From: Lysobacter sp. CFH 32150 | GTDB taxonomy: Bacteria; Pseudomonadota; Gammaproteobacteria; Xanthomonadales; Xanthomonadaceae | Assembly: GCF_022758295.1 (NCBI RefSeq) | Contig: NZ_JALDWJ010000004.1 | Span: forward strand, 124,001-188,000 | DNA: 64,000 nt | Direction: 5' to 3' | In this document: piece by piece, positions 6,401 through 16,366 of the stretch | How the letters are laid out: each line of letters starts with the position of its first letter | How positions within the stretch are numbered: the first letter of the stretch is position 1 | Notes under the pieces: model-generated | Seen by the model: the letters and a program-made list of their open reading frames with translations, nothing else | What the model was told of the DNA's origin: nothing | Database searches by the model: none | Translations under genes and position numbers: made by a program

Positions 6401-7834
6401 TCACAGCACCGGCGAGACCAGTCGCGCCAGCGCTTCGGGCAGGCGTGCACGCCATAGCGGCCGGTCGCGTTCGGCGTGGACCCGTGGGGCCAGGGTGAAT
6501 TCGCCTTCGACCAGCCGCGCGAGTTCCGCGGCGATGCTGGCGTCGCGGAACAGCATCGACACTTCGAAGTTCAAGCGGAAACTGCGATGGTCGAAATTGG
6601 CGCTGCCGATCAGGGCGAGATCGTCGTCGACCAGCAGCGCCTTGGTGTGCAGCAGGCGCGGGCCGTACTCGTAGACCTTGACCCCGGCGTGGAGCAGATC
6701 GTCGAAATACGAACGCGCGGCGTAGGTGACGAGCCGAGAATCACTCATCTTCGGCACCAGCAGGCGCACATCCAGTCCGCCGAGTGCGGCCGAGGTCAGC
6801 GCCATCATTGCCGCCTCGCCGGGCACGAAGTACGGCGTCGCCAGCCACACCCGCTTTTGCGCGCTATGGATCGCGCCGACATGCAGGCGGTGGATCGCTT
6901 CCCAGGCCGAATCCGGACCCGAAGTCAGCGCCTGTACCGCGATCGGTCCGGGGTTCGGTGGCGGCGGTGGCGGCAGTCGCGGCGGTGCGCCGGTGGCGTA
7001 GGCCCAGTCCTCGACGAAGACTTGTTGCAAGGCGCGGACCACGTCGCCTTGCAGCCGTAGGTGCAGGTCGCGATAGGCGTCGGTGCGCAGCCGCTCGTCC
7101 TCGTCGTCGGTGACGTTGATGCCGCCGGTATAGGCGACGCGGTCGTCGATCACCACGATCTTGCGGTGGCTGCGCAGGTTCAGCCACGGACGCTTCCAGA
7201 ACCAGCGCAATCGCATCGGATGGAACCAGGCGACTTCGCCACCAGCGTCGAGCAGGGGTTGCAGGAAGCGCTGATTGGTCTTGCCGGAACCGACGGCGTC
7301 CAGCAACAGGCGCACCCGCACGCCGGCGCGGGCGCGGTCGGCCAGGGCGTCGCGCACCGCCGTGCCGGTGCGATCGGGATAGAAGATGTAGTACTCGAGG
7401 TGGATCGACTCGCGCGCCGTCGCGATGTCGGCCAGCAGTGCGGTGTACTTGGCGCCTCCGTCGATCAGCAGGCGCACGCCAGTGGCGGTGGTCGGCGCCA
7501 GCCCGGTTGTGGCGAGCCCGATCCGGGCGAGCTCCAGCGCGGTGGGATCGGCGTGCAATACCGCTGGCGACGGCAGCGAGGCGCGACTGCGCGCGCGTCG
7601 CAGGCGCTGGCGCACGATCCGCTGCGGTCCCAGCCAGTGATAGATGATGAAGCCGAGGTAGGGCAGCAGGGCCAGGCCGAGCAGCCAGCTGATCGTCGCC
7701 GCCGGCTCGCGTTTCTGCAGCACGATCCAACCGCCGAGGCCGATCAGGTACAACGCCCAGCCGAGCGTCAGATACAGGCCCAGGTGCGGAATGGCCAGCA
7801 GCGCGGTCCAGGCATCGTGCAGGGCGTCGGGCAT
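6401..7834 (-). CDS. cls: Cardiolipin synthase (phospholipase D family)
   Basis: Inner-membrane enzyme that joins two phosphatidylglycerol molecules to form cardiolipin and glycerol. The 477 residues have two N-terminal transmembrane helices (YLTLGWALYLIGLGGWIVLQ, ISWLLGLALLPYLGFIIY), a basic loop, and two PLD catalytic motifs: HRKIVVIDDRVAYTGG and HTKALLVDDDLALIGSANFD. Length suits the ClsA group. The start at 7834 has GGAAG six bases upstream; a GTG four codons earlier is the alternative. An oddity is a proline-rich insert (PPRLPPPPPPNPGP) between the two halves. Divergent from the radical-SAM gene. Confidence 0.93.
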   Translation of the reverse strand: MPDALHDAWTALLAIPHLGLYLTLGWALYLIGLGGWIVLQKREPAATISWLLGLALLPYLGFIIYHWLGPQRIVRQRLRRARSRASLPSPAVLHADPTALELARIGLATTGLAPTTATGVRLLIDGGAKYTALLADIATARESIHLEYYIFYPDRTGTAVRDALADRARAGVRVRLLLDAVGSGKTNQRFLQPLLDAGGEVAWFHPMRLRWFWKRPWLNLRSHRKIVVIDDRVAYTGGINVTDDEDERLRTDAYRDLHLRLQGDVVRALQQVFVEDWAYATGAPPRLPPPPPPNPGPIAVQALTSGPDSAWEAIHRLHVGAIHSAQKRVWLATPYFVPGEAAMMALTSAALGGLDVRLLVPKMSDSRLVTYAARSYFDDLLHAGVKVYEYGPRLLHTKALLVDDDLALIGSANFDHRSFRLNFEVSMLFRDASIAAELARLVEGEFTLAPRVHAERDRPLWRARLPEALARLVSPVL

Positions 7835-7903
7835 GCCGGCTTCCACAAAGGGACTTCACGTTCGTCGCGGGCGTTGCGACGAAGCGAGCGTAACCTAGGT
7901 TGC

Positions 7904-9025
7904 GTGGAAGACGCCCGAAAAGCACTAGCACCGATCAAGGGTCGCGGCGCGGCCTCGCACGTTACCGGCCGTTTCGAAAAAACCGTGCGCCGTGGCGAGG
8001 ACGACGGCTGGGGCTCGGTTTACTGCACGACTGCTGACGGCAGCGCCATCGTCGAAGGCGACGACCTCGCGGTGCCGCGTCTGGACACGCAGGTGACCGA
8101 AGAGCGCGCGCGCTCGGTGATCAGCCGCAACGACTCGCCGGATATCGGCTTCAGCCATTCGGTGAATCCCTATCGCGGCTGCGAGCACGGTTGTGTCTAT
8201 TGTTTCGCCCGCCCGTCGCACGCCTACCTCGACCTGTCGCCAGGCCTCGATTTCGAAACCAAGCTTTTCGCCAAGACCAATGCCGCCGAGCAACTGCGGT
8301 TGGAGCTGGCGAAGCCCTCATACCGCTGCTCTCCGATCGCGCTCGGGATCAACACCGACGCTTACCAACCGATCGAACGTCGCTACCAGGTCACGCGCTC
8401 GCTGCTGGAAGTGCTGGCCGAGTGCAAGCACCCGGTCAGCTTCATCACCAAGAGCGGGCTGATCGAACGCGATCTCGACCTGTTGACGACGATGGCGCGC
8501 GAGCGGCTGGTGACGGTGTACTTCTCCATCACTACCCTCGACAACAAACTCGCGGCGAAGATGGAGCCACGTGCCACCGCTCCGCACGGCAAGTTGCGGG
8601 CGATGCGTGCGCTGTTCGATGCCGGCGTGCCGGTCGGGGTCATGGTGGCGCCGGTGGTGCCGATGATCACCGATCGCGAACTGGAGCAGATCCTCGAAGC
8701 CGCGCATGCGCACGGCGCGCGCGCCGCCGGCTACGTGCTGCTGCGCCTTCCGCACGAATTGAAGGAAATCTGGCGCGAGTGGCTGCAGCTGCATTATCCC
8801 GATCGCGCCGCGCACGTGATGAGCCTGATCCGGCAGATGCGCGGCGGCAAGGATTACGACAGTACCTTCGGCAAGCGCATGCGTGGGGAAGGTCCGTTCG
8901 CCGAGTTGATCGCGCAGCGGTTTGCCAAGGCGCATGCGCGCCTGGGCTTTGGGCGCTTGCCGCCGTTGGATGCTTCGAGGTTCGTCGCGCCGCGCAAACC
9001 GTCGCCGCAGGGCGAACTGTTCTGA
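7904..9025 (+). CDS. Radical SAM protein, PA0069 family
   Basis: A 373-residue radical S-adenosylmethionine protein. The [4Fe-4S] motif is C-EHG-C-VY-C in YRGCEHGCVYCFARPSH; the CX3CX2C spacing and the N-terminal IKGRGAASHVTGRF block are typical of the uncharacterised PA0069 family (distantly related to spore photoproduct lyase-like proteins). The frame is open far upstream, antisense to cls, so the GTG at 7904 was chosen because homologues of this family begin close to IKGRG. The protein ends SRFVAPRKPSPQGELF. A degenerate second copy of the 3' part follows in two pieces, at 9061 and 16530. The reaction is unknown. Confidence 0.9.
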   Translation: MEDARKALAPIKGRGAASHVTGRFEKTVRRGEDDGWGSVYCTTADGSAIVEGDDLAVPRLDTQVTEERARSVISRNDSPDIGFSHSVNPYRGCEHGCVYCFARPSHAYLDLSPGLDFETKLFAKTNAAEQLRLELAKPSYRCSPIALGINTDAYQPIERRYQVTRSLLEVLAECKHPVSFITKSGLIERDLDLLTTMARERLVTVYFSITTLDNKLAAKMEPRATAPHGKLRAMRALFDAGVPVGVMVAPVVPMITDRELEQILEAAHAHGARAAGYVLLRLPHELKEIWREWLQLHYPDRAAHVMSLIRQMRGGKDYDSTFGKRMRGEGPFAELIAQRFAKAHARLGFGRLPPLDASRFVAPRKPSPQGELF

Positions 9026-10803: not shown

Positions 10804-10887
10804 AGGCGCACCAAGGGCTTGCGGAGCACTCATCCGTGGCCTTGGCGTGAACGTAGTAAATATCCATCCATCCAATAAGGAATTGAT

Positions 10888-10992
10888 ATGAAGAAGCTCT
10901 TCTCGGCTGTGAAATCGGCTTTTGGTGTTCGTGGCTGCGGCGGCCCGAATTCCCCGCTCGGCTGGCGCTGGGTGATGTACCACAACATCTAA
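10888..10992 (+). CDS. Putative RiPP precursor peptide, 34 residues
   Basis: A 34-codon gene placed between two P450 genes. The ATG at 10888 has AAGGA seven bases upstream, a good ribosome-binding site. The peptide begins MKKLFSAVKSAFGVRG, an amphipathic leader-like half, then a Cys-Gly-Gly-Pro stretch (C17-P20), and ends LGWRWVMYHNI. The C-terminus is packed with residues P450s can couple: W26, W28, Y31, H32. Only one cysteine is present, so it is not a lanthipeptide-type precursor. Known P450-crosslinked peptides (biarylitides, cittilins, tryptorubin-type atropopeptides) also derive from very short precursors with aromatic C-termini. The core boundary is unknown; cleavage near PNSPLG by the M16 pair downstream is a guess. 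I know of no described family with this sequence. Confidence 0.8.
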   Translation: MKKLFSAVKSAFGVRGCGGPNSPLGWRWVMYHNI

Positions 10993-11001
10993 GTCTCAAG
11001 C

Positions 11002-11035
11002 TGCCGGGGAAGCGGTTTCGATCGCCTCCCCGGCA
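11002..11035 (+). terminator. Hairpin after the peptide gene, possible attenuator
   Basis: TGCCGGGGA (11002-11010) pairs exactly with TCCCCGGCA (11027-11035), and inner bases extend the stem after one mismatch. Only three T residues follow. Sitting ten bases past the peptide stop and before P450-2, it would allow higher peptide than enzyme expression by partial termination or 3'-end protection, a common arrangement in RiPP operons. Confidence 0.55.
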
Positions 11036-11063
11036 TTTGGCCGCGCATAGTTGGAGCACATCG

Positions 11064-12302
11064 ATGCAAGACCCGACGGTGGTGGAGGTAGAGTTCATGC
11101 GGAAGTTTCGGGACCGCCGTCGAGAGAAAGGCCCGATATTCCTGACCGAAGAAAATATCCTGGCGGTTTTCGACGCGCGGGTCGCGCAGAGGCTTGAAGC
11201 CGCAAACTATGCCGACCTGACCATGCTCGATGGTTGGAGCGACGTCATCCGCGGCTGTCCCAGCGAGCCTGTCACCTGGAATCAGCTGCGCTCGGGCTGG
11301 TCCGGACAAATGCGGACTCTGACCGGCGTTGACAGCCTGCGACAACTCGCGCAACGCATGGACCACCTGCTCAGTGCGGAGGCGGGCCGCCAACAAGACT
11401 TGGTCTGGCTGGCCGAACGGGTATCCATCGAATCGTTGGTGCCGGCAATCATTGGCGGGTTGAAGCCCGCAGCGCATCGTCGCGTGGTCCGGGAAGTTTT
11501 AACCAAGGTCGCGTTTGTCCTGTCGGACATTGACGCGCACCGGAACCCGCGCTGGCACAAATGGACCATGGTGGCGTGCCAGGTAATAGCGGGAATCGAA
11601 GTCAGGCGCGAGCTGAAAGGCCGAGCCAGCGGAAAGCGGGCGCGGCAACCGGATCTTACCGACGCCGTCGTTGACCTGATCCCTACGCTGGGCATCGGCC
11701 GGGCAGTGGATGCCGTCACCGCGCTACTCACGGCCATCACCGGATCGCCCGGTGCCGCCGCCGCCTGCCTGCTTTACGAATTGAATCGGCAGCATGAATG
11801 GCGAGCGCGCCTGGAAGCAGAGCTCGCTGCCGTATCGCTGGAGCAGTTGTGCGAATCGCCGATGCGCGTTGCGCCGTTGACCGGTCGATTCGTCAAAGAA
11901 ATCCTGAGGATGTGGGGTTCGCCCATCATGATCCGGACGGTGCGCACCGATATCGATCAAGATCAGATCTCATTGAAGGCCGGTCAGGCATATGCGATCA
12001 GCCCGTTCCTGGTTCATCACGACGATACCGACTGGTCGGACCCTGAAACATTCGATCCGGACCGGTGGTTGGCCGACGGTCGCCGCGCGCAGTGCCCACA
12101 CGGCAGCTATGTGCCGTTCGGCTGGGCACCAAAATCCTGCATCGGCGCCAATCTGGGTATGGCACAGCTGGTCCTGCTGGCCCACTTGATGTGCACGCGC
12201 TATCGATTGCAGGTGCCTGAGCCGGAACGCGCGAAGATGGCGGTGGCGTCGGTGGTCAGGCCGATGGATTTCAACGGTGCAGTCCTGCACCGCTCGCAAT
12301 AG
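11064..12302 (+). CDS. Cytochrome P450, second of two in the peptide locus
   Basis: A 412-residue P450-like protein, only distantly similar to the first. Seen: ExxR (E279-R282 in KEILRMWG), FDPDRW, and a heme loop FGWAPKSCIGANL with C359. Two departures from consensus: the loop glycine of FxxGxxxC is alanine (A355), and the I-helix (about 220-235, LTAITGSPGAAAACL) has no acidic-alcohol pair. The ATG at 11064 is preceded by GGAG; a TTG at 11037 is a weaker start. It starts 71 bases after the peptide gene. Likely role (inference): a second ring-forming oxidation on the peptide, or a partner of P450-1. Confidence 0.88.
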   Translation: MQDPTVVEVEFMRKFRDRRREKGPIFLTEENILAVFDARVAQRLEAANYADLTMLDGWSDVIRGCPSEPVTWNQLRSGWSGQMRTLTGVDSLRQLAQRMDHLLSAEAGRQQDLVWLAERVSIESLVPAIIGGLKPAAHRRVVREVLTKVAFVLSDIDAHRNPRWHKWTMVACQVIAGIEVRRELKGRASGKRARQPDLTDAVVDLIPTLGIGRAVDAVTALLTAITGSPGAAAACLLYELNRQHEWRARLEAELAAVSLEQLCESPMRVAPLTGRFVKEILRMWGSPIMIRTVRTDIDQDQISLKAGQAYAISPFLVHHDDTDWSDPETFDPDRWLADGRRAQCPHGSYVPFGWAPKSCIGANLGMAQLVLLAHLMCTRYRLQVPEPERAKMAVASVVRPMDFNGAVLHRSQ

Positions 12303-12310
12303 GGATTTGA

Positions 12311-13687
12311 ATGCAGGATCTGACGCAAGGCTCTATCAAGCAGCAGCTGCTGACGATGTCCGGGGCATTTCTGCTCAATCTGCTCGCCGGCACGGTGTTC
12401 TCGCTGGTGAATATATTCTGGCTCGGACGGCTCGGGTCTTCTGCGCAGGCGGCAGTGACCCTCGCCGCCATTCCGATGATGTTCTTGCTCACGCTGATGC
12501 CGATCATCAGCGTCGGATCGGGGATCCGGATCTCGCATGCGGTCGGCGCCAAGGATCGCGAGCGCGCCAACCAGATCTTCAACGAGGTATTCGGTGCTTC
12601 GTTGCTCGTCATCGCGTTTATTGGCTGCGTTGCCTGGATCAATCGCGAAGCATTCGGTTTCCTGCTGACCTCCAACCCCGAGACCGCCGCGTTGATCGCT
12701 GCGTACTCGCGTTGGTTCATTCCTTCGATCGTGGTTCAAATACCGGTGTTCGTGTTGGCGGGCGCATTGGAGTTCACCGGTAATGTACGAGCCGGGACCA
12801 TTGCCCAGTCCGGGACCGTCGTCCTGAACGCTATCCTGGCACCGGTGCTGATGTTCGGCTGGCTCGGCCTGCCGCCGCTTGGAGTCGATGGCGCCGGGCT
12901 GGCGTCGTTCCTCGCCTGCAGTGCGAGCATGCTTGGTCTGCTCGTCTACTGCGCCAGAGAAAGCGCTTACCTCACCATGCGCCCCTCCATCTGGCTGGCG
13001 CGGCCGAAGGAACTCTGGGGCGCACTGAAGGTCGGCTTGCCAACCGGGATGGAAAGCGGCGTGATGGCCGTTTATCTGCTGGCAATCGCACTACTGCTGC
13101 GTCCATTCGGTCCAGCCGAACAGGCGGCCTTCGGCATCGGCCAGCGGATATTCCAGGCAGGCTTCATGCCATTGATGGCCTTGAGCAGCGCTACCTGCGT
13201 GCTGGTTGGCCAATGCTACGGCGCGGGGCTGACCGGCCGGTTGCGCGAAACGCTGAGGATCAGCCTGCTATTCGGATTCGTCGGCGCACCGGTGCTCTCG
13301 CTATTCCTCGAGGTCTTTGCCCCGTGGATTTGCAGCAATTTTTCCAGTGACCCGGCGGTCATCGCGGCGGGTACGCTGTTCCTGCGCATTGCCAGCCTGA
13401 GTTTGATTCCGGCAAGTGCTGCCTACGCGGTATTCGCCGTGCTCTCTGGAATGGGTAATACCAAGGCGAGTCTGTACACGCAGCTGATCTACGCCGCGCT
13501 TGTAATCGTACCGGCCTGTGCCTTGTCGCAACTTCCTGGATTCAAACCGAGTTGGTTGTGGACGGTCATGGTGGTTGCCGGCGTAGTGCAGGCACTGATG
13601 GCATGGCATTTCCTTCGCAATGAATTTCGCAAAGGGGTCGATCGACCGCATGTCATTCCAGCCATCGAGCTGACGGCCGCACAGTAA
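12311..13687 (+). CDS. MATE family efflux transporter
   Basis: A 458-residue inner-membrane protein with about 12 hydrophobic helices in two homologous halves, typical of multidrug and toxin extrusion transporters driven by Na+ or H+. The N-terminus (GSIKQQLLTMSGAFLLNLLAGTVFSLVNIFWLGRLG) and the segment QIFNEVFGAS...SRWFIPSIVVQIPVF fit the family. It starts eight bases after P450-2, so it is co-transcribed. In this setting it probably exports the mature peptide or gives self-protection (inference). Its length is normal and no helix seems to be missing. Confidence 0.92.
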   Translation: MQDLTQGSIKQQLLTMSGAFLLNLLAGTVFSLVNIFWLGRLGSSAQAAVTLAAIPMMFLLTLMPIISVGSGIRISHAVGAKDRERANQIFNEVFGASLLVIAFIGCVAWINREAFGFLLTSNPETAALIAAYSRWFIPSIVVQIPVFVLAGALEFTGNVRAGTIAQSGTVVLNAILAPVLMFGWLGLPPLGVDGAGLASFLACSASMLGLLVYCARESAYLTMRPSIWLARPKELWGALKVGLPTGMESGVMAVYLLAIALLLRPFGPAEQAAFGIGQRIFQAGFMPLMALSSATCVLVGQCYGAGLTGRLRETLRISLLFGFVGAPVLSLFLEVFAPWICSNFSSDPAVIAAGTLFLRIASLSLIPASAAYAVFAVLSGMGNTKASLYTQLIYAALVIVPACALSQLPGFKPSWLWTVMVVAGVVQALMAWHFLRNEFRKGVDRPHVIPAIELTAAQ

Positions 13688-13721
13688 CGGCCGAATGCCT
13701 CAGTCCAAAGGAAGCACAGGG

Positions 13722-15089
13722 ATGCATCATTCGCCCACTCATACCATTGGCGGCGATAGCGGCCGATCGAATTTCCGCTTCATTCGCAGCGCAGGCGGCA
13801 TCGAGGAGTATCGCCTTGCCACCAACGGCCTGAGGTTGCTGACCATGGACGCCCCTGCGTTTCCGGTGGCGCTGCTGATGGTGACCTACGAGGTGGGCAG
13901 CTGCCACGAAACCAGCGGATTCAACGGCGCCAGCCACATGCTCGAACACATGATGTTCAAGGGTAGCGCCCGCTTCAACAAGCAGCTGGGAACTTCAATC
14001 TATGACCTGCTGCAGCCGGTGGGCACCCTGATCAATGCAACCACCTGGCTTGATCGCACCAACTATTTCAGCCTGGCCCCGACCAGCCATCTGGAGCTTG
14101 TCGCCGAAATCGAGGCGGACCGGATGCGCAAACTCCGGATTGACCTGCGCGATCTGGAAGCGGAGAGGACGGTCGTGCTCAACGAGCACGATCAGCACGC
14201 CGGAAATCCGCTGGAGAAACTCTACCAATCGGTGTGGAGCACGGCGTTCGCCAGCCACCCCTATGGCGCGCCGGTGCTCGGCACCCGCGAGGACATACAA
14301 GGCTTTACCCGCGACAGCTTGCTTCAGCATTACAACAGCTACTACTGGCCCAACAACGCTACCGTTACCGTCATTGGCGACGTTCGGCGCGAGCATGTCC
14401 TGGAGGTTGTCGGCCGACACTTCGCGCACGTGCCGGCGGCCGATAACCTGCCTGATGCAGGTCATGAGGCCGAACCCGAGCAGCGCAGCGAACGCCGGGT
14501 CGTGGTCGAGCAGTCGTGCCAACCAGGCTGGATCATGCTCGCCTACAAGACAAGCACTGGCCTGAGTCGAGACGCGGATGCACTGGAGTTGCTGGGCAGC
14601 ATACTGGCCGGCAGCAAGCTGTCGAGGTTGTATCGGCAACTGGTCATCACCCAACTAGCCGCTGGTGCATGGTCGAGCTCACCGAGGTTGAAGCATCCTG
14701 GGCTGTTCCTGGTGCAGGCGCTGCTTGGCGCGAGCCAGGATCATCATCGAGTGGAGCAGCTTATCCGCGACGCCATCGGCGACATCCGCAACCACGGCGT
14801 GTCGCACGAAGAGTTGGAGCGAGCCAAGGGCCAGGCAAGTGGCAGCCTGCTGACCTCGCGCGACGGTCCCTTGGTTATCGCCATGCAGCTCAACGAAGCC
14901 ATCGCCGCTGGCGACTGGACGTCATACTCGACGGCAGTCGATCGGTACGGCGCGGTATCAACTGCCGACGTGCAGCGAGTCGCCCGCCAGTACCTGACCG
15001 ATGAACGGCTGACTGTTGGCTACCTCGTCCAAGCCACCGATGAACCTCGGGCTGCGTCCTCCGCTGGCGACTCGGCGCAGCTGCAATGA
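13722..15089 (+). CDS. M16 family metallopeptidase, catalytic subunit
   Basis: A 455-residue M16B protein (PqqF/mitochondrial-processing-peptidase fold). The inverted zinc motif HxxEH is intact: H72-M-L-E75-H76 in GASHMLEHMMFKGS, with the distal acidic helix about 75 residues on (EIEADRM...LEAERTVVLNEHD). The C-terminal domain lacks the substrate-binding R/Y pair (the place reads ITQLAAGAWSS), which the next gene supplies, as in two-chain M16B heterodimers. The ATG at 13722 follows AAAGGAAG; another ATG at 13695 has no ribosome-binding site. No signal peptide is evident. Proposed role: removing the leader of the crosslinked peptide. Confidence 0.88.
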   Translation: MHHSPTHTIGGDSGRSNFRFIRSAGGIEEYRLATNGLRLLTMDAPAFPVALLMVTYEVGSCHETSGFNGASHMLEHMMFKGSARFNKQLGTSIYDLLQPVGTLINATTWLDRTNYFSLAPTSHLELVAEIEADRMRKLRIDLRDLEAERTVVLNEHDQHAGNPLEKLYQSVWSTAFASHPYGAPVLGTREDIQGFTRDSLLQHYNSYYWPNNATVTVIGDVRREHVLEVVGRHFAHVPAADNLPDAGHEAEPEQRSERRVVVEQSCQPGWIMLAYKTSTGLSRDADALELLGSILAGSKLSRLYRQLVITQLAAGAWSSSPRLKHPGLFLVQALLGASQDHHRVEQLIRDAIGDIRNHGVSHEELERAKGQASGSLLTSRDGPLVIAMQLNEAIAAGDWTSYSTAVDRYGAVSTADVQRVARQYLTDERLTVGYLVQATDEPRAASSAGDSAQLQ

Positions 15090-16366
15090 CGGCGATCGTG
15101 CAACTGCGGAAACAAGAGGCTGTTGTCGGCCTGCCGCTGACGCACGGTCGCTTCTTTGGGCTTCGCGCGGCCACGCCTTCCTTGGTCGCGCTGACCGGCT
15201 CGTTCCAAACCGAGCCGGCTGGCGACCGCGGTGAACTGCTGCTGCAACAGTTGGTCGCTGCGTTGGTGACCTGCGGAAGCCGGCAGCGCAATCAATTCGA
15301 GATCGCGCATCTGCTGGAAAGCCGTGGCGCTTCGCTGTCGGTAGAGTCCGAGATGCGGCGTGTAACGTTTTCCGCCCGAGCCTGTGCCGGGGATCTGCCC
15401 CTGGTAACGGAACTGCTTTCGGAGTGCCTGCGCGAGCCGAGGTTCGACGCAGAAGGCTTCGCTACCGAACAGGCGCGCCTGATCGCAGAACTGCAATACC
15501 GCGCGACCGACCCAGCCGTCCTGGCGGCGGATGCCCTTTCGCGCATCCTCTACCCAGCGCAGCATCCGCGGCACCAAACCGAGCTTGCCGGGCAGGTCTC
15601 GCACATCCAACAGCTGACTGTCGACGACGTGCGCAGATACCACCGCGAGCACTTCGCTGCGAACAATCTCTGTGTCGTGGCCGTTGGCGACATCGATCCG
15701 TTGGCGACTGCTGCGGAAATTGACCGGCACTTGGCCCCGTGGTCGCCGCGACCAGGGCGCGTGAGCAGCGAACTAGGCGTGCTCGCAAACTCGGCGACGG
15801 TGGTCGAGATACCTGTGCCAGGGCGCGAAAATTTCGATGTCGCGCTTGGGCACGGGCTGACCGTCCGCTGCGACCATCCGGATTACCTGGCGCTATGGAT
15901 GGCCAATCATGTTCTCGGGGCCGCATTTACTTCCCGCCTGTCCACTGCCGTGCGCGAGGAACAGGGGCTTACTTACGCCATTCGCTCCGAGTTGGCCAAG
16001 CCGGACTGCGAGTTCGATGGCCACTGGCAGATCGACCTGTCGCTGAGCCCGGACAAGCTCGATGCCGGGCTGGCGGCGACCCATGCGGAAATCAGCCGTT
16101 TCGTTGACGAGGGCGTTACCGCGCAGGAGCTTGCCGCCAAGCGACTCGAAGCCATCGGCGTGTTTCATATCAGCCTGGCAACGCTTTCCGGGCTGAGCGA
16201 AACCATCCTGTTTGGCGCGGAGCTGGGCTGGGGACCGAACTTCATTCACGAGTTCGCCGACAAGCTTGGCGCGATAACCACCGCTCAGCTCAACCGCACC
16301 GTCAGAGAGCACCTGCGCCCAGCAGAACTGCACACAGCTGTTGCCGGCCCGTTTGCCGGCGCCTAG
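15086..16366 (+). CDS. M16 family non-catalytic partner subunit
   Basis: A 426-residue M16B protein lacking the zinc motif: where HxxEH should be (about 51-62) it has LLLQQLVAALVT. It carries the R/Y substrate-binding pair, R290 and Y297 in VREEQGLTYAIRSEL. The start ATG overlaps the stop of the catalytic subunit by four bases (ATGA), so the two are translationally coupled and very likely form a heterodimer, as known for PqqF/PqqG-like and Sphingomonas M16B pairs. Last gene of the island operon; no clear terminator follows. Confidence 0.88.
   Translation: MTAIVQLRKQEAVVGLPLTHGRFFGLRAATPSLVALTGSFQTEPAGDRGELLLQQLVAALVTCGSRQRNQFEIAHLLESRGASLSVESEMRRVTFSARACAGDLPLVTELLSECLREPRFDAEGFATEQARLIAELQYRATDPAVLAADALSRILYPAQHPRHQTELAGQVSHIQQLTVDDVRRYHREHFAANNLCVVAVGDIDPLATAAEIDRHLAPWSPRPGRVSSELGVLANSATVVEIPVPGRENFDVALGHGLTVRCDHPDYLALWMANHVLGAAFTSRLSTAVREEQGLTYAIRSELAKPDCEFDGHWQIDLSLSPDKLDAGLAATHAEISRFVDEGVTAQELAAKRLEAIGVFHISLATLSGLSETILFGAELGWGPNFIHEFADKLGAITTAQLNRTVREHLRPAELHTAVAGPFAGA

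Follow-up and report, generated by a model that had tools for sequence, protein, structure and literature searches.

Going by the title of the study of Yin et al. (Angew. Chem. 2026, doi 10.1002/anie.202522698; cited in PMC13417212), hyalucidin A is a RiPP whose benzofuranoindoline is formed by tandem P450s. In the descriptions cited here, the marks of an atropopeptide are a class-defining P450, the leader motif KSLK, and a Trp at core position two (PMC11450843), and the atropopeptide cluster lau has two P450s (PMC12352619, PMC11450843). The enzyme ScaB makes WxxY links (PMC12352619) and is described as forming a Trp C6–Tyr link in WALY. Rubrin, a cyptide, is described with a P450-made (PruB) Tyr C6–Trp C7′ link, a linkage common to gpertide, and its scaffold has, as read from the description of its synthesis, a W-A-L-Y spacing. 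P450 coupling of Trp with Tyr thus has precedent, as far as these descriptions go, in the links of ScaB and rubrin. Biarylitides come from a pentapeptide precursor of the MxYxH/Y type (PMC13417212). Tyr-x-His cross-links are described for them as well.

In the window (the whole stretch of 64,000 nucleotides analyzed here), a 34-codon open reading frame is framed by two P450 genes and followed by genes for an exporter and for two proteins of the M16 peptidase family (Table 1). This open frame is a real gene, and very probably that of a RiPP precursor. We consider it probable, from comparison of sequences, that the cassette is a two-P450 RiPP system sister to that of hyalucidin A, in which W28 and Y31 of the precursor would be joined, an M16 heterodimer would cut the peptide, and a MATE protein would export it.

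Table 1. Coordinates of the precursor gene, the flanking P450 genes, and the genes 3′ of them in the window
Feature	Position	Strand	Remarks
P450a, first cytochrome P450, 379 aa	9640..10779	+	Pfam p450, E 9.7e-22
Ribosome-binding site AAGGA	10877..10881	+	Read from the sequence; 6 nt 5′ of the ATG
Precursor gene	10888..10992	+	34 aa plus stop; NF053510 match over the full length, 21.1 bits, E 2.5e-4, below the 35-bit cut-off
Leader MKKLFSAVKSAFGVRG	10888..10935	+	Kept in the 31-copy alignment; pN/pS 0.27 (codons 2–16, 22 Lysobacterales copies)
Spacer CGGPNSPLG	10936..10962	+	Variable in length and sequence among copies; probably the cleavage zone
C-terminal core block WRWVMYHNI	10963..10989	+	W28 and Y31 kept in every copy of the family (31/31)
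GC-rich hairpin directly after the precursor stop	10996..11040	+	Possible mRNA stabilizer or attenuator
P450b, second cytochrome P450, 412 aa counted from its ATG	11064..12302	+	Pfam p450, E 8.9e-25
MATE-family exporter	12311..13687	+	Pfam MatE, 4.5e-43; NCBIfam matE above cut-off
M16a peptidase, catalytic-type subunit	13695..15089	+	Pfam M16/M16_C; HxxEH
M16b peptidase-like subunit without HxxEH	15086..16366	+	Pfam M16/M16_C

The precursor gene

The translation of positions 10888–10992 on the forward strand is MKKLFSAVKSAFGVRGCGGPNSPLGWRWVMYHNI followed by a stop. An earlier note on this DNA, made from the letters alone, had placed the open frame between two P450s and credited it with a good ribosome-binding site; both neighbors do match the Pfam p450 model, and an AAGGA precedes the ATG (Table 1). 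The GC content here is about 61% (61–71% over the whole window). No Pfam model matches the peptide at E ≤ 0.001, and a search of plasmids with the peptide as query gives no match. The assignment to RiPP precursors follows from a short gene with a conserved leader and a conserved C-terminal block, and with candidate modifying enzymes encoded beside it. That the core begins after PNSPLG is a guess.

Conservation among the precursor copies

There are 31 precursor copies, none of them broken, in 17 non-redundant P450a loci of three phyla (one to four per locus, 29–36 aa in length). All 31 end with W-x-x-Y-[HR]-x-[IV]-stop. With positions counted back from the last residue, W(−7) and Y(−4), which are W28 and Y31 of the window copy, are invariant; an I or V at −1 and a His at either −3 or −2 are likewise present in 31/31. 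At −9 (the position of W26), a Trp or Tyr occurs in 28/31 copies, and H32 is kept in 28/31. Inside W-x-x-Y, on the other hand, ten different residues occur at position −5. The three precursors without an aromatic residue at −9 (L044, L061, and L062, all from Micromonosporaceae) belong to loci where both P450s are nevertheless kept, so that W28 and Y31 are the likeliest coupled pair.

The earlier note had drawn attention to the cluster of W26, W28, Y31, and H32, and named conserved aromatic positions together with a variable leader in homologous loci as support. W28 and Y31 bear this out in every copy. W26 and H32 are less constrained, and the W28–Y31 link is therefore the safest prediction. 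The leader, by contrast, is conserved, and the variability sits in the spacer before W26. The note had also named frameshifts or stops in relatives that keep the P450s as evidence against the gene; an intact precursor is present at 17/17 loci.

Open frames ending with W..Y[HR].[IV]-stop, a motif defined after inspection of the copies, number 31 between P450a and P450b on the correct strand (17 loci), 0 in the remainder of the 369,335 bases, and 0 in three dinucleotide shuffles. When a profile built from all 31 copies is run against the 17 genomes (E ≤ 0.01, best 150 candidates per genome), it finds 31 places in 17/17 genomes, all beside P450a and all without internal stops. The rates of change differ along the gene. 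Pooled over 22 Lysobacterales copies, with pairs that are not mutually independent, codons 2–16 of the leader give pS 0.534 and pN 0.146, which points to purifying selection on the leader. In the spacer, pS is 0.313 and pN 0.224 (22 close pairs). The pooled Lysobacterales values are pS 0.309 and pN 0.113 for the last nine codons, and pS 0.251 and pN 0.140 for the last seven; the pN/pS of 0.56 in the latter is due to the in-ring positions, which vary. A chance open frame that is never translated could well be as short as this one and could equally be without a model match above cut-off. With 31 conserved copies in 17 genomes, none elsewhere in the loci or in shuffles, and a leader pN/pS well under 1, such an origin is extremely improbable.

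Three or four precursor copies are present at L036:8848–9774, L021:11001–11818, L045:11141–11871, and L022:8146–8786. Within these loci, the copies differ mainly in the spacer and inside the predicted W-x-x-Y ring, and they resemble a small natural library.

Distribution of the cassette

Of 100 relatives searched with the peptide, 63 genomes have matches at E ≤ 1; only the strong matches, in the window's genome and in G012 and G014 (three copies in each of these two), were accepted as real, the others having E > 0.01. P450a is present in 9/395 sampled genomes of the window's family (E ≤ 1e-20; Lysobacteraceae, judging from its named members) and in 5/397 genomes sampled from the order (E ≤ 1e-60; one of these, a Dokdonella, is new). 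A non-exhaustive scan of contigs with two short peptide patterns gives at least eight loci. Four of them appear to have been in the sampled set already (Lysobacterales MAG SH_71_25, Luteimonas aquatica, Lysobacter sp. Root76, and Lysobacter sp. cf310); further ones are in Dokdonella fugitiva, in Rhizocola hellebori, and in two MAGs titled Thermoanaerobaculum sp. and uncultured Acidobacteria. In samples from the corresponding taxa, P450a occurs in 1/347 genomes of the phylum of the Thermoanaerobaculum sp. MAG, which is the MAG itself, and in 5/250 genomes of the family of Rhizocola, Rhizocola included. The 17 non-redundant loci comprise nine from Lysobacteraceae, one from Dokdonella (Rhodanobacteraceae), two from Acidobacteriota going by their titles, and five from Micromonosporaceae. 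In 17/17, the gene order is P450a, then one to four precursors, then P450b.

In the acidobacterial MAG locus L043 (4805–7657), P450a and P450b form one open frame of 950 codons, with three precursor genes in another frame of the P450a–P450b linker. At L042 (12789–20034), two giant WD40-repeat proteins, the first also with a TIR domain, adjoin the acidobacterial cassette. The best P450a relative on plasmids, from Embleya (33% identity), was excluded from the 17 loci because the 13-kb stretch examined contains no separate P450b-like gene and, by the filter applied, no precursor-like open frame. A radical SAM gene at 7061–9025, upstream of P450a, was weighed as a candidate tailoring enzyme but set aside as lying outside the conserved cassette; it encodes a PA0069-family protein. 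By tblastn, no relative of it is found in the eight other Lysobacteraceae loci or in L042–L045.

The two P450s

In the alignments of the 17 members, the ExxR motif and the heme cysteine are invariant in both enzymes (E250, R253, and Cys328 in P450a; E279, R282, and Cys359 in P450b). The AlphaFold2 models have the P450 fold, with a mean pLDDT of 88.9 for P450a and 85.6 for P450b. In the I helix, P450a contains AxxGSxGF in 17/17. At the site of the E-T of CYP170A1 and CYP24A1, P450b carries a G (12), S (4), or A (1) and then an S (10) or P (7). Both P450s thus seem to be without the usual acid–threonine pair of the I helix. Absence of this pair is tied to coupling chemistry, and the composition of the I helix would accord better with coupling than with insertion of oxygen. 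P450s are usually oxygenases, and a pair that merely oxygenates the peptide, by hydroxylation or similar and with no ring formed, would keep to this usual role. Such an outcome is unlikely here given the apparent absence of the acid–threonine pair from both enzymes, and the invariant W-x-x-Y pair is better matched by coupling.

The identity distances of P450a and P450b covary over the 17 loci (Mantel r 0.968, with 0/9,999 permutations as high), and the pair is therefore probably inherited together. A full-length relative of P450a is found in the PDB (9ulw, chain 9ulw_A, “Cytochrome P450,” 376 aa; profile E 2.3e-95). It is 39% identical to the P450a of the window and has the GSxGF stretch of the I helix in common with it, so that a structure of the P450a enzyme type may already exist. 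Comparison of folds with the P450a and P450b models gives general P450 matches only, and 9ulw is absent among the matches listed. A literature search for the code 9ulw found nothing. Searched with the 9ulw sequence, 274 genomes of the class give the window's genome as the sole match, and plasmids give only distant P450s (three records).

Exporter and M16 peptidases

The MATE gene is present in 10/10 Lysobacterales loci, the window included. In 9/10, the order 3′ of the cassette is MATE, M16a, M16b; in L037, the same three genes adjoin P450b in the opposite direction. The HxxEH motif is found in M16a at 10/10 Lysobacterales loci and in M16b at 0/10, and such a pairing of an active with an inactive subunit is typical of M16 heterodimers. 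One stop lies inside the aligned range in the M16a stretch of L037, and one in the M16b stretch of L033.

In the seven non-Lysobacterales genomes, no M16 gene occurs near the cassette, though M16 genes occur elsewhere in them. Likewise, tblastn finds no homologs of MATE or M16 in the stretches around these seven cassettes (the L043 contig is only 9,268 bases long). A release step by M16 is therefore not general.

A hairpin after the precursor stop

The RNA of positions 10985–11070 folds with −33.5 kcal/mol (z −2.85). A perfect stem of at least eight pairs within 60 nt of the stop, a strict test, is present after 19/31 copies, versus 73/1,860 random positions, 46/1,860 shuffles, and 1/13 other gene ends. 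The window hairpin fails this strict test because of mismatches in its stem, and it is not followed by a long run of T. Among the copies, the position of the hairpin is kept while the stem sequences differ. The hairpin would likely stabilize the precursor mRNA or partly terminate transcription.

A proposed pathway

In the pathway that we favor, the leader would recruit P450a and P450b, and these would oxidatively join Trp28 to Tyr31 in W-x-x-Y, plausibly as the benzofuranoindoline named for hyalucidin A, and one of the two P450s would carry out an additional oxidation or make an additional bond. Cleavage within the variable spacer by the M16a/M16b heterodimer would then free a ringed C-terminal peptide, some nine to twelve residues long, for export by the MATE protein. 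For WRWVMYHNI, the calculated [M+H]+ is 1304.636 in the linear form, 1302.620 with 2H lost, and 1300.604 with 4H lost. By way of the hairpin that follows its stop, the precursor mRNA may be more abundant than that of the enzymes. A benzofuranoindoline is an indole joined to a phenol, which fits W28 and Y31. A single W–Y benzofuranoindoline requires one two-electron oxidation only, which gives the other P450 no explained role and counts against the favored pathway.

The two P450s might instead make two links, one between W28 and Y31 and the other to W26 (−9) or to the His after Tyr31, with a bicyclic product unlike hyalucidin A. This is a sharper form of the favored pathway, with which its odds overlap, and it is possible although doubtful. 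In its favor, both P450s are kept at 17/17 loci, and a Trp or Tyr at −9 (28/31) and a His at −3 or −2 (31/31) are present; Tyr-x-His cross-links are also those of the biarylitides, as described. Against it, L044, L061, and L062 lack the aromatic residue at −9 and still have both P450s, and a single benzofuranoindoline motif is named in the title of the hyalucidin A study. A little more tentative is the specific version for Lysobacterales, in which W28 and Y31 would be fused as in hyalucidin A, Trp26 or the His after Tyr31 would be joined by the second P450, a dedicated M16 heterodimer and MATE protein would release and export the product, and up to four variants would be made per strain, some of them differing at the in-ring position −5.

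With the favored W28–Y31 pathway, two-P450 peptide chemistry would extend to Lysobacteraceae, Dokdonella, and Acidobacteriota. The 31 predicted natural substrates point to both the coupled pair (the invariant W and Y) and a tolerant position in the ring. Lysobacter sp. Root76, Lysobacter sp. cf310, Luteimonas aquatica, and Dokdonella fugitiva are strains suited to testing the order of the P450s, release by M16, and the exporter.

Comparison with hyalucidin A and other P450 peptides

Atropopeptides (tryptorubin, scabrirubin, and the WxxY products of ScaB), as described, share with the present system a short precursor and, as predicted for the latter, a P450 macrocyclase and WxxW or WxxY links. 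Their KSLK-type leader motif is found in 0/31 copies here. In biarylitides, the precursors are of 5 aa versus 29–36 aa. The short precursor beside a P450, the C-terminus rich in Trp and Tyr, and the WxxY links reported for ScaB would also suit an atropopeptide or a biarylitide of the known classes; with these differences in leader and length, and with two flanking P450s at every locus, membership in either class is very unlikely. For cyptides, a P450-made Trp–Tyr link is described; here, the W-x-x-Y motif is present in 31/31 copies, and the bond within it is a predicted one. Cyptides are set apart by their description, in which one P450 each is named for rubrin and gpertide, versus two here.

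The closest curated family is that of NCBIfam NF053510, “hyalucidin A family RiPP precursor” (an equivalog model of 29 positions). At E ≤ 1, it matches 19/31 copies and gives no match for the other 12/31. The standing relative to the 35-bit cut-off is known for the ten copies of the 31 that were scanned singly. Above it are L042 (48.2 bits), L060 (47.8), and L059 (42.6). Below it are L045 (30.3), L043 (27.6), L062 (17.5), L044 (16.3), and the window copy, which aligns with the model end to end (Table 1); one copy from L037 and one from L021 give no match. Searched against whole genomes at E ≤ 0.01, the model finds nothing in the window's genome (G000) or in the control genomes. Since the window member falls under the curated cut-off, such members are easily missed. 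No title among the literature matches listed connects these genera to a RiPP made with two P450s; the name hyalucidin was outside that search.

The loci with above-cut-off precursors have the same P450 pair and the same gene order as the window. The window P450a is 53, 47, and 45% identical to the relatives in L042, L059, and L060, respectively, and P450b 50, 45, and 45%; going by the title of the hyalucidin A study, the related P450s of these three loci are presumably the published tandem P450s. The above-cut-off precursors have relatives of P450a and P450b on either side, and the window cassette is for this reason best placed in a sister branch. As far as the sequences indicate, the cassette would operate in the manner of hyalucidin biosynthesis; our best reading of the branch is a divergent one, below the curated score of the hyalucidin A family. 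Tandem P450s, as described for hyalucidin A, and the C-terminal W-x-x-Y-H-x-I are common to both. On the other hand, the Y-x-W of the three above-cut-off copies is replaced by W-R-W in the window, and the window branch has one to four precursors per locus with an M16 pair and a MATE gene beside the P450s. Since the family was described in 2026, the kind of precursor is itself not new, and the window represents a distant branch of it. What this analysis adds is the Lysobacterales branch, with W-R/H-W, multiple precursor copies, a protease and exporter module, and a hairpin after most precursor stops.
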